Origin: Poseidonibacter parvus
GTDB lineage: Bacteria > Campylobacterota > Campylobacteria > Campylobacterales > Arcobacteraceae
Direction: 5' to 3'
Length of the DNA stretch: 64,000 nt
NCBI RefSeq assembly: GCF_001956695.1
Contig: NZ_CP019070.1
Coordinates: forward strand, 930,001-994,000
Under the pieces are notes generated by a model. It saw nothing but the letters and a program-made list of their open reading frames with translations, ran no database searches and had not been told where the DNA came from. This document shows, one piece after another, positions 52,318-62,517 of the stretch (the first letter of the stretch is position 1; each line of letters opens with the position of its first letter). Both the position numbers and the translations under genes were made by a program.

Positions 52318-54231
52318 ATGAACTTAAAAAATGAAAGCAAATTACTTTTTATAATTAGATATGCTCTACCATTTTTTATTTTAATAATCTCAATATTTGC
52401 AACTTTATTTTTACATTCTCAAAGTAAATCTGATTTTGAGAATGTAAAAAAAGAAATCGAAGAAAAATTTATTCAAAATAATAAATTAATCATAAAAGAA
52501 CAAATTGAAACAATTTATTCTCAAATTATTTCAAAGCAAGAATCTACAGAAAAAAATCTAAAAGAATCCCTTCAATCAAGAATTTATGAAGTTCATTTGA
52601 TAGTCTCAAATATTTATAAAAAATATAAAGATACTCACTCTAAAAAAGAAATAAGAGATATTATAAATGTGATTATAAAATCAATTAAATTTAATGATAA
52701 TAGAGGCTACTTTTTTATTTATGATAAAAATGCAACTGGTGTTATTCATCCTTTATTACCTGATTTTGAAGGAAAGAATTTAGTAAATCTTCAAGATAGT
52801 AAAGGTGAGTTTATATTAAAAGAATCCTTAGATTTATTAGAAAATAATGATGAATCATTTCAAGAGTGGTATTTTAGAAAAGATAAAAATGATTTGAACG
52901 ATTATAAAAAAATTGGTTTTATAAAAAATATTTATGAATTAGATTGGTTTATAGGAACTGGCGAATATATTCAAGATTTTACAAAAGAAGTAAAAAAAAG
53001 CATTTTAGATGAGTTTAATTTAATAGATTTTGATAATGCTAATAAATATCTCATAATTATAGATGAAAATAATAAATATATAAAACATACAAACAGTGAA
53101 CTTCTTGGTAAAAGTATTAGTGCTGCTGCAAAAAAATATAAAGTTAATATTAATACACAAGAAGTACGAAATATTTCAAAAGCTGGTGGATATATAACTA
53201 TTAAGTTTCCAAAACCTAATAATATTACACCAAGATTAAAAATAATATATAGTAAACTAATACCAAAATGGAACTGGATGATTTCAACTGGTTTTTATGT
53301 TGATGAAGTGCAAGTTTTAATTGATAAAGAAAAAGAAAAATTCGCTAAAAAACATGATAATGAATTAAAGAATATTTATTTACTCTCTTTGCTAGTTACT
53401 TTTGCACTTTTACTAATATCTTTTCTTATTTCTAAGCTTATTGAAAAAAGATTTAATGAATATAAATTAAATATAAATAAACAAATAAAAGAAAATCAAA
53501 AACAATATGAATTACTTTCTCAAAAATCTAAACTTGCAGCAATGGGAGAGATGATAGGAAATATTGCTCATCAATGGCGACAGCCTTTATCTGTAATTAC
53601 AACAGCTTCTTCTGGAATAAAAATACAAAAAGAAACAGATTTATTGACTGATAAAATTTTATTTGATTCTTTGGATATTATTATCTTAACATCTGAGCAT
53701 TTATCAAATACAATTGAAGATTTTAAAGATTATTTTAAGCCAGATAAAGAGAAAAGTATTTTTCTTATTGAAAAACCTATTAAGAAAACTTTTAGGCTTT
53801 TATTATCACAATCAAATATTAAAAAAGTAACTTTTATAAAAGATATAAATACTTTAAAAATTGAAGGATATGAAAGAGAACTTTTACAAGTTTTATTAAA
53901 TATTTTAAATAATGCAATAGATGCTTTTGCTGAGGATACGAAGAATAAATACATATTTGTTAGTGCATATGAGAAAAATCAAAATGCAATTATTGAAATA
54001 AAAGATAATGCAGGAGGAATAGAAAAAGATTTATTAAAAAGAATTTTTGAACCTTATTTTACTACAAAACATAAATCACAAGGTACAGGTCTTGGACTGT
54101 ATATTTCTCAAGAGATAATATCTAGGCATATGAATGGAAAAATTGAAGCTAAAAATACAAGTTTTACTTATAATGATGAAAAATATACTGGAGTTAAATT
54201 TTGTATTATTCTGCCTCTTCTTAAAGATTAA
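52318..54231 (+). CDS. Cache sensor histidine kinase
   Basis: 637 residues. TM1 is about 10-30 and TM2 about 355-375. The periplasmic part has two Cache-like units (RGYFFIYDKNATGVIHPLL and NKYLIIIDENNKYIKHTN). The phosphorylated His is in NIAHQWRQPLSVI, the ATPase has NILNNAIDAF, and FEPYFTTKHKSQGTGLGL holds the G boxes. No response-regulator gene is adjacent, so the partner is elsewhere. Confidence 0.94.
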   Translation: MNLKNESKLLFIIRYALPFFILIISIFATLFLHSQSKSDFENVKKEIEEKFIQNNKLIIKEQIETIYSQIISKQESTEKNLKESLQSRIYEVHLIVSNIYKKYKDTHSKKEIRDIINVIIKSIKFNDNRGYFFIYDKNATGVIHPLLPDFEGKNLVNLQDSKGEFILKESLDLLENNDESFQEWYFRKDKNDLNDYKKIGFIKNIYELDWFIGTGEYIQDFTKEVKKSILDEFNLIDFDNANKYLIIIDENNKYIKHTNSELLGKSISAAAKKYKVNINTQEVRNISKAGGYITIKFPKPNNITPRLKIIYSKLIPKWNWMISTGFYVDEVQVLIDKEKEKFAKKHDNELKNIYLLSLLVTFALLLISFLISKLIEKRFNEYKLNINKQIKENQKQYELLSQKSKLAAMGEMIGNIAHQWRQPLSVITTASSGIKIQKETDLLTDKILFDSLDIIILTSEHLSNTIEDFKDYFKPDKEKSIFLIEKPIKKTFRLLLSQSNIKKVTFIKDINTLKIEGYERELLQVLLNILNNAIDAFAEDTKNKYIFVSAYEKNQNAIIEIKDNAGGIEKDLLKRIFEPYFTTKHKSQGTGLGLYISQEIISRHMNGKIEAKNTSFTYNDEKYTGVKFCIILPLLKD

Positions 54232-57794: not shown

Positions 57795-58385
57795 TCAAAA
57801 GTTTATTATAGTTAATAAGTCTTTTTTACTATTTATTTGTTTCTCATAAGCTTGTATCCCTTTTGAAAGTAGTGAGTTTTTCAATCCTTCTCCTATCTTA
57901 CTTGATACAAATACATTTACATTAAAATCTAAAAATATTTTAGGTAAAACAATTGCAGGTTTTGAGTTATTTATAAAAACTTCATTTTCAAATACTTTTA
58001 TTAAAGTTACATCATTTTCTTGCATTTTATAAATATGTATAAATTCATCAGTTGCTAGCATAGATTCAAAATCATTTTTATTAGAACTACAAATAGCAAC
58101 AATATAACTTGTACTTTCGTCTTCAATTGATATCTTATTTCCATATACTATTGCTCTTGTCAATTTTTGTCTTGCATTTTTTAATATTCTAGTAAATGTA
58201 GGTCTTGAAACTTGCATACTAATAGCAGCTTCTTCTTGATATAAATCTAAAATATCCATTAAATATATAGCTTCCATCTCTTCATTTAATAAAGTACTAA
58301 CTGCATTATATTTTTTATTTTCAGGAACAAACTCTTTAAATGATGGTTTAAAAGTTAAGTTTCTCTTTGTTTTTTCTCTTCCCAT
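57795..58385 (-). CDS. DUF134 regulator with NifX-like sensor domain
   Basis: 196 residues. The N-terminal DUF134 domain has a helix-turn-helix like sigma region 4 (LLNEEMEAIYLMDILDLYQE, SMQVSRPTFTRILKNARQKL). From about 90 a NifX/NafY-like alpha/beta fold follows (YIVAICSSNKNDF, FVSSKIGEGLKNSLLSKGIQA), a class known to bind Fe-Mo cofactor precursors or Fe-S units. AAGGATAAT precedes the ATG. It is divergent from the cyd operon, whose promoter carries a large palindrome; it is the probable regulator. Confidence 0.85.
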   Translation of the reverse strand: MGREKTKRNLTFKPSFKEFVPENKKYNAVSTLLNEEMEAIYLMDILDLYQEEAAISMQVSRPTFTRILKNARQKLTRAIVYGNKISIEDESTSYIVAICSSNKNDFESMLATDEFIHIYKMQENDVTLIKVFENEVFINNSKPAIVLPKIFLDFNVNVFVSSKIGEGLKNSLLSKGIQAYEKQINSKKDLLTIINF

Positions 58386-58430
58386 TATTATCCTTGTTTA
58401 AAATAATATCTAAATTCTCTTGAAATATTC

Positions 58431-58475
58431 TTGACATATGTTCAATAAAGTGTTATCATTTTGAACATATGTCAA
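58431..58475. promoter_or_regulatory. cyd promoter with perfect 15-bp inverted repeat
   Basis: TTGACATATGTTCAA (58431-58445) and TTGAACATATGTCAA (58461-58475) are exact reverse complements, centres 30 bp apart, about three helical turns. Each arm holds ACATATGT, itself a palindrome. A sigma-70 promoter lies within: TTGACA at 58431-58436, 17 bp, TATCAT at 58454-58459. The left arm covers the -35 box and the right arm the start region, a repressor layout. Confidence 0.85.
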
Positions 58476-58489
58476 CAAAAGGAGATTTT

Positions 58490-58702
58490 ATGTTGAATAT
58501 CAAAAATATTTACTCTTTTTATATTAATGGTTTTAAAAACATGACTATTGGAAAAACATTATGGAAACTCATATTAATAAAACTATTGGTTATATTTCTT
58601 TTTCTTAACTATTTTGTACATGATAAATCTTTAAAAAGTGAATATAAGACATATGAGGAAAAAGTTGATTTTGTATATAAAAATTTAACTAAAGAAAATT
58701 GA
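58490..58702 (+). CDS. DUF4492 membrane protein of the cyd operon
   Basis: 70 residues from the ATG at 58490, which AAAGGAG at 58478-58484 selects over the ATG at 58469. It reads IYSFYINGFKNMTIGKTLW followed by a membrane helix (LILIKLLVIFLFLNYFV), the pattern of DUF4492 proteins found before cydA in Campylobacterota and Bacteroidetes. Its role is unknown; assembly or stability of the bd oxidase is a reasonable guess. cydA follows 10 bases later. Confidence 0.82.
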   Translation: MLNIKNIYSFYINGFKNMTIGKTLWKLILIKLLVIFLFLNYFVHDKSLKSEYKTYEEKVDFVYKNLTKEN

Positions 58703-58712
58703 GGATAATAAA

Positions 58713-60242
58713 ATGGAAGAACATTTAGTTGATTGGTCAAGAGCACAGTTTGCACTTACTGCAATGTATCATTGGATATTCGTTCCATTGACATTGGGGC
58801 TTGGTTTTATTGTAGCTATTATGGAAAGTATTTATGTAAAAACAAATGATGAATTTTGGAAAAAAACAACAAAATTTTGGATGGGTTTATTTGCAATAAA
58901 TTTTGCTATTGGAGTTGCAACAGGAATTATAATGGAGTTTGAGTTTGGTACAAACTGGGCAAATTACTCTTGGTTTGTAGGTGATATTTTTGGTGCACCT
59001 TTAGCGGTTGAAGGTATTTTAGCATTTTTTATGGAAAGTACTTTTTTTGCTGTTATGTTTTTTGGATGGGATAAAGTAAGTAAAGGTTTTCATCTTCTAT
59101 CAACTTGGCTAGTAGCTGTTGGTTCAAACTTATCAGCACTTTGGATTTTAGTTGCAAATGGATGGATGCAATATCCTGTTGGAATGACTTTTAATCCAGA
59201 TACTGTAAGAAATGAAATGAATAACTTTTGGGATGTTTTATTCTCACCTGTTGCAGTTAGTAAGTTTTTGCATACAATTGCTAGTGGTTATGTATTAGCT
59301 TCTTTATTTGTAATTGGTATTAGTTCATGGTATTTATTAAAGAAGAGAGATATTTTATTTGCTAAAAGATCTATTATTATAGGTTCTACTTTTGGACTTA
59401 TTACTTCGCTTTTTTTAATTTTAAGTGGAGATGAGTCAGCTCATCAAGTTGCACTTAAACAACCTATGAAACTTGCAGCAATGGAAGGATTATATGAAGG
59501 AACAACAGATGCAGGAATTGTGGCTATGGGAATATTAAATCCTAAAAAAACAATTTCAAATGATGAAGAACCTTTTCTTTTAGAAGTAACAGCTCCTTAT
59601 GCACTTTCACTTCTAGGGTATCACGATATACATGCTTTTGTCCCTGGAATTAAAGATTTAGTTTATGGAAATGTAGAACAAGGAATTATCAGTACACAAG
59701 AGAAAATGCAAAAAGGAAAACTTGCAGTTCAAGCTTTAGAAAATTATAAAGAAGCTAAGAAAGCAAAAAATGAAGATCAATTACTTCAATCAAAAGCAGT
59801 TCTTGATGAAAATATGAAGTATTTTGGTTATGGACATATTAAAAAAGTAGAAGATGTAGTTCCTCCTGTTGCTATTAGTTTTTATTCTTTTCATATTATG
59901 GTTGCACTTGGTTCTTGGTTTACACTACTTTTTACAATGGTATTATTTTTTGCAACAAAAAGAGATATTTTGAAATACCCATTACTTTTAAAAGCAGCTT
60001 TATGGAGCATTCCTTTAGGTTATATCGCAAGTGAAGCTGGATGGGTTGTTGCAGAAGTTGGAAGACAACCTTGGGCTATTCAAGATTTAATGCCAGTTGG
60101 AATTGCTGCTACTAAAATAGCTACAACAAATGTAATGATAAGTTTCTTTATTTTTGCAACTTTATTTACAGTATTACTAATTGCAGAAGTGAAAATAATG
60201 ACTAAACAAATAGGTCTTGGATCTGAAAGTAAGGAGCATTAA
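58713..60242 (+). CDS. cydA: Cytochrome bd oxidase subunit I
   Basis: 509 residues. A haem-ligand His is in AMYHWIFVPLTLGLG near the N terminus; GRQPWAIQ (about 450) is the bd signature. The Q-loop between GDESAHQV and YFGYGHI is long, as in E. coli CydA. The enzyme reduces oxygen with quinol at high affinity. It is followed at once by cydB. Confidence 0.97.
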   Translation: MEEHLVDWSRAQFALTAMYHWIFVPLTLGLGFIVAIMESIYVKTNDEFWKKTTKFWMGLFAINFAIGVATGIIMEFEFGTNWANYSWFVGDIFGAPLAVEGILAFFMESTFFAVMFFGWDKVSKGFHLLSTWLVAVGSNLSALWILVANGWMQYPVGMTFNPDTVRNEMNNFWDVLFSPVAVSKFLHTIASGYVLASLFVIGISSWYLLKKRDILFAKRSIIIGSTFGLITSLFLILSGDESAHQVALKQPMKLAAMEGLYEGTTDAGIVAMGILNPKKTISNDEEPFLLEVTAPYALSLLGYHDIHAFVPGIKDLVYGNVEQGIISTQEKMQKGKLAVQALENYKEAKKAKNEDQLLQSKAVLDENMKYFGYGHIKKVEDVVPPVAISFYSFHIMVALGSWFTLLFTMVLFFATKRDILKYPLLLKAALWSIPLGYIASEAGWVVAEVGRQPWAIQDLMPVGIAATKIATTNVMISFFIFATLFTVLLIAEVKIMTKQIGLGSESKEH

Positions 60243-61376
60243 ATGGGTTTTGGAACATTAGAACTTTTAACACTTCAACAATATTGGTGGATGATAATAT
60301 CTTTATTAGGTGGTCTTTTTGTGTTTATTATGTTTGTACAAGGTGGACAAACTTTAATGGATAAATTAAGTGATAGTGAAATAGAAAAAACTATGTTAAT
60401 TAATAGTATTGGAAGAAAATGGGAATTAGGTTTTACAACTTTAGTTCTGTTTGGTGGTGCTTTATTTGCAGCTTTTCCACTATTTTATGCAACTAGTTTT
60501 GGTGGAGCTTATTGGGTATGGTTAGCTATTTTATTTTGTTTTATTATTCAAGCTGTAAGTTATGAATTTAGAACAAAACCTAATAATTTTCTAGGACAAA
60601 AAACATATGAAATGTTTTTAAAAATCAATGGAAATATTGGAACTTTTTTATTAGGAGTTGCTATTAGTACATTTTTTAGTGGGAGTGAGTTTATAGTTGA
60701 TTCAAACAATTTTGTAGATTGGCAAAACCCACTAAGAGGTTTAGAATCACTACTTAATCCATATAATTATTTACTAGGCTTTGCGCTTGTATATTTAGCA
60801 AAAATAAGTGGAGCTTTATATTTTATTAATAATATTGATCACCATGAAATAAGACAAAGAGCTGTTTTATCTATTAAAACAAATATGATTTTCTTTTTAC
60901 TCTCGTTTTTAAGTTTTATGACTTGGATTCTTATAAAAGATGGATATGCAGTTGATAGTGAAGGTTTTGTGTCTATAGAAAGATTTAAATATTTTCAAAA
61001 TTTTATTGATATGCCAATTGTTTTAGTTATGTTTTTAATAGGTGTAGCAATGGTAATTATTGCTGTATTTGTTACAGTTATTTTTAGAAAAACTTGTTGT
61101 ATTAAGACAGGTGGAATTGGAATAGTTCTTACTGTAATGGCTGTTTTATTAAATGTTGGATTAAACAACACAGCTTATTATCCTTCAACAGTTGACTTAC
61201 AAAGTAGTCTTACAATAGTAAATAGTTCAGGAAGTCATTATACTTTGATAACAATGTCTTATGTATCATTGATGGTACCTTTTGTATTAGCTTATATTAC
61301 TTACGCTTGGTATAGCATGGATAAAGTAAAAATTACAAAAGAAGAAATTCAATCTCCTGATTCTCATAATTATTAA
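60243..61376 (+). CDS. cydB: Cytochrome bd oxidase subunit II
   Basis: 377 residues with about eight or nine membrane segments. YWWMIISLLGGLFVFIMFVQGGQTL at the start, NSIGRKWELGFTTLVLFGGALFAAFPLFYA, and FEFRTKP-like YEFRTKPNN are family features. It stabilises the haem domain of CydA. The ATG directly follows the cydA stop. Confidence 0.97.
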   Translation: MGFGTLELLTLQQYWWMIISLLGGLFVFIMFVQGGQTLMDKLSDSEIEKTMLINSIGRKWELGFTTLVLFGGALFAAFPLFYATSFGGAYWVWLAILFCFIIQAVSYEFRTKPNNFLGQKTYEMFLKINGNIGTFLLGVAISTFFSGSEFIVDSNNFVDWQNPLRGLESLLNPYNYLLGFALVYLAKISGALYFINNIDHHEIRQRAVLSIKTNMIFFLLSFLSFMTWILIKDGYAVDSEGFVSIERFKYFQNFIDMPIVLVMFLIGVAMVIIAVFVTVIFRKTCCIKTGGIGIVLTVMAVLLNVGLNNTAYYPSTVDLQSSLTIVNSSGSHYTLITMSYVSLMVPFVLAYITYAWYSMDKVKITKEEIQSPDSHNY

Positions 61377-61389
61377 AAAGGTTAAAAAT

Positions 61390-61491
61390 ATGGAATATTT
61401 AAGTGAATTAATTTGGTTAAGTCTTTGGCCCGTGGTTATATATCTAGGATATAAAATCTCAATAATAAACGCAACAAAGGAAATAAAATGA
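61390..61491 (+). CDS. 33-residue CydX-like membrane peptide
   Basis: It starts at ATG 61390 after AAAAAGG and overlaps the NifX-like gene in an ATGA junction at 61488. It reads MEYLSELIWLSLWPVVIYL then GYKISIINATKEIK: one hydrophobic helix with a charged C terminus. Small one-helix subunits (CydX, CydS) support bd oxidases elsewhere; the sequence is not clearly homologous, so the assignment rests on position, size and topology. Confidence 0.65.
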   Translation: MEYLSELIWLSLWPVVIYLGYKISIINATKEIK

Positions 61492-61892
61492 TTGCAATAC
61501 CAGTAAAAACAAATAAAGAAAATACAGCAGTGTCAACAATGTTCGGGAAAGCTAAATATTTTGCTTTAATCTCAAATGATAAAATAGAAATTATAAGAAA
61601 TGAGCATGCAGGTGGAAGAGCAGTTGCGACATGGTTAAAAAGTATGAATGTAGATATCCTTATAACTTCTCATATGGGTGATAATCCATTTTCTGTACTT
61701 TTAGAAATGGGAATAAAAGTTTATTTTGCCGGAAACGAAAGAATTGAAATGAATGATGTTTTATTAAAATATGCAGATGGAGAATTACCACCTTTAACTT
61801 TAGAGAATTTTAAAACACTTATGAAAGATGATTTACACAATAATCGTAAATCAAAAAATAAAGAATTAAATAAAAGTTCTATATTTATTTAG
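61488..61892 (+). CDS. Stand-alone NifX/NafY-like protein
   Basis: 134 residues; the first 110 form a dinitrogenase Fe-Mo cofactor-type domain (MIAIPVKTNKENTAVSTMFG, KYFALISNDK, SHMGDNPFSVLLEMGIKVYF). A short basic, Asn/Lys-rich tail follows. No nif genes are in the window. The same fold ends the DUF134 regulator upstream, so the two may bind the same Fe-S or other cofactor, or each other. AAAGGAA lies before the ATG. Confidence 0.85.
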   Translation: MIAIPVKTNKENTAVSTMFGKAKYFALISNDKIEIIRNEHAGGRAVATWLKSMNVDILITSHMGDNPFSVLLEMGIKVYFAGNERIEMNDVLLKYADGELPPLTLENFKTLMKDDLHNNRKSKNKELNKSSIFI

Positions 61893-61941: not shown

Positions 61942-62517
61942 ATGAAACATGTATTAATGACTTTACCTTATACTTCAGATGCATTAGAACCATTAATGTC
62001 AAAAGAAACTTTAGAGTTTCACTATGGAAAACACCACCAAACTTATGTTAATAAATTAAATGAATTAATTGAAAATACTAAATATGAAAATTTATCATTA
62101 AATGAAATAATAAAAACTTCAGAAGGTGGGGTTTTTAATAACGCAGCACAAGTTTCTAACCATGATTTTTTCTGGAATGGTTTAACTCCTAATCAAACAA
62201 ATATTCCTTCAAATCTTGAAGATGAGTTAGTTAAAGCTTTTGGAAGTGTTGAAGAATTTAAAAAAGAATTTACGGCAAAAGCAATAGGACAATTTGGTTC
62301 AGGTTGGGCTTGGTTGGTTCAAGATGAAAATAAAAACTTAAAAATAATTACAACTTCAAATGCACAAACACCAATTCAAAGTGATTTAAAACCACTATTA
62401 GTATGTGATGTTTGGGAACATGCTTATTATATAGATGTAAGAAATGCAAGACCTGCTTATTTAGAAAATTTTTGGAAACTTGTTAATTGGAATTTTGTAG
62501 AAAAAAACCTTGATTGA
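61942..62517 (+). CDS. sodB: Superoxide dismutase, Fe type
   Basis: 191 residues. The metal ligands are in HYGKHHQTYV, SNHDFFWNGL, and DVWEHAYYIDVRN (Asp and His). Gln in FNNAAQV marks the iron form. It removes superoxide in the cytoplasm. It lies 49 bases after the NifX-like gene and could be cotranscribed with the cyd genes. Confidence 0.96.
   Translation: MKHVLMTLPYTSDALEPLMSKETLEFHYGKHHQTYVNKLNELIENTKYENLSLNEIIKTSEGGVFNNAAQVSNHDFFWNGLTPNQTNIPSNLEDELVKAFGSVEEFKKEFTAKAIGQFGSGWAWLVQDENKNLKIITTSNAQTPIQSDLKPLLVCDVWEHAYYIDVRNARPAYLENFWKLVNWNFVEKNLD

Follow-up and report, generated by a model that had tools for sequence, protein, structure and literature searches.

Palindrome pairs on a cytochrome bd promoter as predicted operators of an adjacent DUF134 regulator

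Results

The window, a stretch of 64,000 nucleotides of the Poseidonibacter parvus genome, carries two palindromic sites on the promoter of a cytochrome bd (cyd) operon, and comparison across genomes makes a strong sequence-based case for assigning them as operators of the divergently encoded DUF134 protein. This protein is quite probably a local repressor, sensing cluster or redox state, that would control the cyd/NifX operon through the two sites.

Organisation of the cyd locus

The regulator gene (57795..58385, minus strand) encodes a protein of 196 aa with an N-terminal DUF134 helix-turn-helix and a C-terminal NifX/NafY/ORP-like domain. The target operon, on the plus strand, begins with a gene for a small DUF4492 membrane protein (58490..58702; PF14899, E=4.7e-25), which has AAAGGAG before its start, and continues with cydA (58713..60242; PF01654) and cydB (60243..61376; PF02322, and TIGR00203 above cut-off), encoding subunits I and II of cytochrome bd oxidase. 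After a gap of 111 nt follows a NifX-like gene (61488..61892, plus strand; PF02579, E=4.6e-15). No intrinsic terminator was found on the plus strand between this gene and cydB, and the NifX-like gene is probably the last gene of the cyd operon. Its product and the regulator are the only two PF02579-type proteins in the window's genome.

Directly after the NifX-like gene lies a gene for an Fe/Mn superoxide dismutase (61942-62517), which is possibly part of the same oxygen-related cluster. Almost every cyd locus of the host family (the bacterial family of the window's genome) has the DUF4492 gene ahead of cydA, with the regulator present or absent, and the product of this gene may be a small subunit of bd oxidase.

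Two near-palindromic arms on a near-consensus promoter

The sequence-only reading had reported two perfect 15-base arms lying on a TTGACA-N17-TATCAT promoter, and both are indeed there: TTGACATATGTTCAA (58431..58445, plus strand) and TTGAACATATGTCAA (58461..58475, plus strand) are exact reverse complements, separated by 15 nt. The cyd promoter itself (58431..58459, plus strand) consists of TTGACA (58431-58436), a 17-bp spacer and TATCAT (58454-58459); it scores 11/12, and TG precedes the -10. Each arm, taken singly, is near-palindromic around ACATATGT. The first predicted operator, with its core at 58434-58441, overlaps the -35 box, and the second, with its core at 58465-58472, lies directly past the -10, over the expected start point. 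The distance of 30 bp given in the earlier reading is right for the arm centres; between the ACATATGT cores it comes to 31 bp.

Perfect 15-nt inverted-repeat matches within 100 nt occur on average 0.05 times per Markov-simulated window, compared with two places in the real one. The second of these is a 16-nt repeat (TTTTTACATTCTCAAA at 52408-52423 and TTTGAGAATGTAAAAA at 52435-52450, with an 11-nt loop) within the start of a sensor-kinase-like ORF (52318-54231), and is unrelated to the cyd arms. When the 2.87-Mb genome was searched with the 15-nt arm, no further copy was found at 0 or 1 mismatch; matches with two mismatches number 27, versus 16 for the reversed control pattern, and look like background. 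The half-site plus core, TGAACATATGT, has four exact copies genome-wide, two at the cyd arms and two within coding sequences, and because of the location of the latter two we rejected a wider regulon in the window's genome.

Conservation of the operator pair with the regulator

Among 104 genomes of the host family, 48 encode the DUF134-NifX-fold regulator. The pair, searched for as TTGACATATG-N23..27-CATATG, is found in 45 of these 48 and in none of the 56 genomes lacking the regulator (Fisher p = 3e-26, with kinship ignored); the reversed pattern, used as a control, has no matches in the host-family genomes. Reading the regions upstream of the regulator in 29 relatives revealed the pair in all but two, L030, where a contig end cuts off the flank, and L035, where the right site is degraded. 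Fifteen aligned regulator-cyd intergenic regions share 14 invariant columns (TTGACATATGTTCA plus CATATGT) in variable surroundings, so that ACATATGT pairs, which the sequence-only reading had proposed looking for upstream of cyd genes in related species, are present there. All regulator-linked promoters keep TTGACA-17-TAnnAT, with the cores 30 or 31 bp apart.

The conserved unit in these alignments is two copies of a palindromic operator, with TGAACATATGTTCA as the ideal form, rather than a long inverted repeat. In the close relatives of the window's genome the second site is TGAACATATGTCAA, which gives the inverted repeat; elsewhere it is TGAACATATGTTCA, a perfect palindrome, or CGGACATATGTTCA/CGGTCATATGTTCA, which makes the pair a direct repeat. 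Conservation of the arms in relatives, as first proposed, thus applies to the pair of palindromes; the inverted arrangement is specific to this lineage, and direct repeats occur in other genera. The left half of site 1 reads TTGAC instead of TGAAC, presumably because this site must double as the -35 box. With perfect 15-nt arms around a 15-nt loop, the repeat could also be taken for a DNA cruciform or an RNA hairpin (a terminator or attenuator), a reading that is extremely improbable: the left arm is upstream of the expected start point and so would be outside the transcript, and we rejected the reading on the finding that the pair is a direct repeat in many relatives.

Two relatives, L033 and L037 (about 2110-2190), have three palindromic operators, spaced by 29-31 bp, before a NifX-like gene, the third following at a distance of 29-30 bp. 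Pattern matches remote from the regulator (L055, L061 and L081) were not accepted as true sites and are taken as chance because they lack a -10 at the right place. The match at L081 (G059:C14:22294-22334), a TTGACATATGTTCC...TGAGCATATGTTCAA pair far from DUF134 genes and without a fitting -10, would be either chance or a second target.

The sites follow the regulator rather than cyd

Of the host-family genomes, 40 encode cydA. The sequence-only reading had linked the arms to cyd; the pair does lie on regulator-linked cyd promoters, but it is the regulator that the sites follow. Among the cyd promoters read that have no adjacent regulator, no operators were found. One genome (G030, L090) contains two cydAB operons, one with a DUF134 regulator and operators and one lacking both. 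Regulators of a paralogous group (identity about 35-43%) lie opposite a NifX-like gene of ~110 aa in the neighbourhood of htpX; cyd is absent there, and the operators are the same. In L031 the operator promoter is separated from DUF4492-cydAB by NifX-like genes. In the genomes compared, the operators are therefore linked to the presence of the regulator, whether the apparent target is cydAB or a NifX-like gene alone. Since operators accompany regulators without cyd and are missing from cyd promoters without a regulator, DUF134 and a NifX-like gene appear to form the basic circuit, which cydAB would have joined in some lineages.

The palindrome resembles the SOS box of Gram-positive bacteria, the 12-bp cores being nearly the same, but it differs from that box in flanks and target genes. 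Its core GAACATATGTTC fits the Firmicutes LexA consensus, CGAACATATGTTCG (PMC2248561). A LexA site is nevertheless extremely unlikely here: the sites are tied to the presence of DUF134 and not to DNA-repair genes, and no match to PF01726, the LexA DNA-binding domain, was found in the window's genome, while control genomes were positive. The LexA reading was rejected given a genome without LexA.

Domains and fold of the regulator

The regulator belongs to the DUF134/UPF0251/COG1342 family (PF02001), with a match of 57.3 bits (E=2.3e-15) against a Pfam cut-off of 27. Many members of this family are short, single-domain proteins; the window's regulator differs from them in its additional NifX-fold domain. 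Its AlphaFold (AF2) model, with a mean pLDDT of 86.5, has a helix-turn-helix followed by a C-terminal domain. Model helices span residues 49-55 and 60-80, and a recognition helix of the SRxTF type is present, in which S, R, T and R are invariant in an alignment of regulators. A single cysteine, Cys99, is shared by all 19 aligned regulators. By sequence, the closest solved-structure relative of the helix-turn-helix is Bacillus subtilis DeoR of the SorC family (7bhy, 8r7y; E=1.4e-6); the similarity covers only about 38 residues, and the effector domain of DeoR is different.

The C-terminus matches PF02579 (Nitro_FeMo-Co) at 20.9 bits, which is below the curated cut-off of 26.3. The best solved matches to the model in Foldseek are 2re2, 2yx6, 9ian and 1p90, with 2wfb, the orange protein, lower, and the modelled C-terminal domain can be assigned to the NifX/NafY-type fold. 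Several NifX/NafY-type proteins are carriers of metal-sulphur clusters. The regulator shares its predicted fold with the NifX/NafY/ORP carriers (PF02579; 2re2, 9ian, 1p90, 2wfb), and the target operon ends in a protein of this type; the carriers have no DNA-binding domain, unlike the regulator, whose own match to their family falls short of the cut-off.

DUF134 promoters in other taxa

The same palindromes are frequent at other DUF134 genes of Campylobacterota, in the gene's own promoter or a divergent one, whether the protein has two domains or is short (about 90 aa). Where short DUF134 genes appear to control themselves, the sites lie over the -35 and the start region. These positions bear on the reading in which DUF134 binds the sites as an activator or dual regulator, at its own or the cyd promoter, instead of as a simple repressor. 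A candidate -10 of the regulator's own promoter (TATTAT, 58403..58408, minus strand), an element also seen in close relatives, would place the left operator centred near -41, a typical position for an activator; no -35 match was found for this candidate promoter. The -41 spacing is not kept among relatives, so the earlier proposal that the left arm also lies within the promoter of the divergent regulator gains a fitting -10 in the window and loses the fixed distance, and is plausible only. At the cyd and short DUF134 promoters, a protein bound over the -35 and start region should block polymerase, and a cyd promoter this near to consensus should not need an activator. We therefore regard activation or dual control as unlikely, and repression as the better reading.

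Scanning 84,980 species genomes with an alignment of the DUF134 domain gave 80 loci in many phyla; a contig search with the regulator alone as query had no matches. In the 160 nt upstream of these loci CATATG is seen 81 times versus 3.6 expected, and it is present at 60 of the 80. Outside Campylobacterota it ranks first in enrichment among all 4096 hexamers (30 seen versus 0.9 expected, at 29 of 40 loci), with different flanks, such as TGAGCATATGCTTATAAT, TTGGCATATGCCAATA and similar. At least 45 of the 80 loci have a NifX-like ORF nearby. A further 60 DUF134 loci, most of them chosen by HMM score from the phyla of Smithella and of a Bacteroidetes genome, have CATATG upstream in 12 cases and lack it in 48, with none in the 28 loci of the set from the Bacteroidetes genome's phylum. 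For two subgroups without CATATG, hexamer enrichment revealed no clear substitute motif. The presence of CATATG at only 12 of these 60 loci led us to reject a universal DUF134 operator; judged from the upstream sequences, CATATG-centred palindromes are present at many DUF134 promoters in other phyla and missing from the rest.

Covariation of the recognition helix with an operator base

In the recognition helix, written SRxTF-x-X, residue X was compared with operator position -3. Where X is Arg, G occupies -3 in one half-site or more at 53 of 54 loci; where X is Asn, it does so at none of six, which have T instead (Fisher p = 1e-7 overall and 2e-6 outside the phylum, kinship being ignored in both). 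The records that contain the Asn loci carry the labels Omnitrophota, Thermoanaerobaculaceae, Aminicenantes, Kiritimatiellales and Chlorobiaceae. Two genomes have both Arg- and Asn-type paralogues, each with matching operators (L247/L234 and L251 in one, L248/L218 and L252 in the other). The rule that Arg goes with G and Asn with T was fixed before the further loci were fetched, and all ten new Arg-type sites have a G half-site. A second rule, relating residue X1 to base -1 (S, T or A with A, and G with G), had fitted the earlier loci and failed on the new ones, the exceptions being L224/L250 (SRQTFSN with G) and L252 (SRATFAR with G).

The covariation is circumstantial evidence that points to DUF134 itself as the reader of the sites. 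Binding by DUF134 is deduced here from sequence, which leaves room for another, unlinked transcription factor using the same sites; we consider this very unlikely, because the sites show tight phylogenetic linkage to DUF134, gene losses included, and in other phyla covary with its recognition helix.

Discussion

The locus has the makings of a classical local-repressor operator pair, in that palindromes on the core promoter are conserved together with the adjacent regulator gene. In the mechanism that we favour, one DUF134 dimer would bind each CATATG-centred palindrome, a reading in line with the sequence-only proposal of two dimers, which the comparative evidence supports. Cores 31 bp apart are separated by about three turns of B-DNA, which would put the two dimers on the same DNA face, covering the -35 box and the region past the -10. 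These are usual positions for repressor sites, and the placement of site 1 on the -35 and site 2 past the -10 favours repression, in which RNA polymerase would be kept off the DUF4492-cydAB-NifX promoter. The NifX-fold domain would sense a cluster or redox state, with the invariant Cys99 as a possible sensing residue; the change sensed would cause release from the DNA, yielding more bd oxidase and more of its NifX-like companion.

A broader proposal is that DUF134 proteins are widespread transcription factors that would recognise CATATG palindromes through a helix-base code (Arg to G and Asn to T at -3) and sense metal-sulphur clusters through a fused or co-encoded NifX-fold protein, with cytochrome bd captured in this lineage. 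We advance this tentatively, as a reading whose chances fall a little below even.

To our knowledge, DUF134/UPF0251/COG1342 proteins are known only as predicted DNA-binding proteins. In the open-licence PMC literature we found none of DUF134, UPF0251, COG1342 and DUF4492 described as a regulator, and no operator, regulon or signal for DUF134/UPF0251/COG1342. The family would thus gain a concrete DNA target and a minimal regulon, together with a specificity rule that can be tested. As the sites accompany DUF134 across genomes, they suggest which DNA sequence the protein reads, and its function becomes directly testable. According to a review, A. butzleri has no FNR/CRP homologue, and its other regulators are without reported functions (PMC6682613); for this group the DUF134 protein is offered as a candidate regulator of cytochrome bd. 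The combination of a putative NifX-fold sensor with a NifX-like target suggests that the status of metal clusters may be linked to the choice of terminal oxidase.
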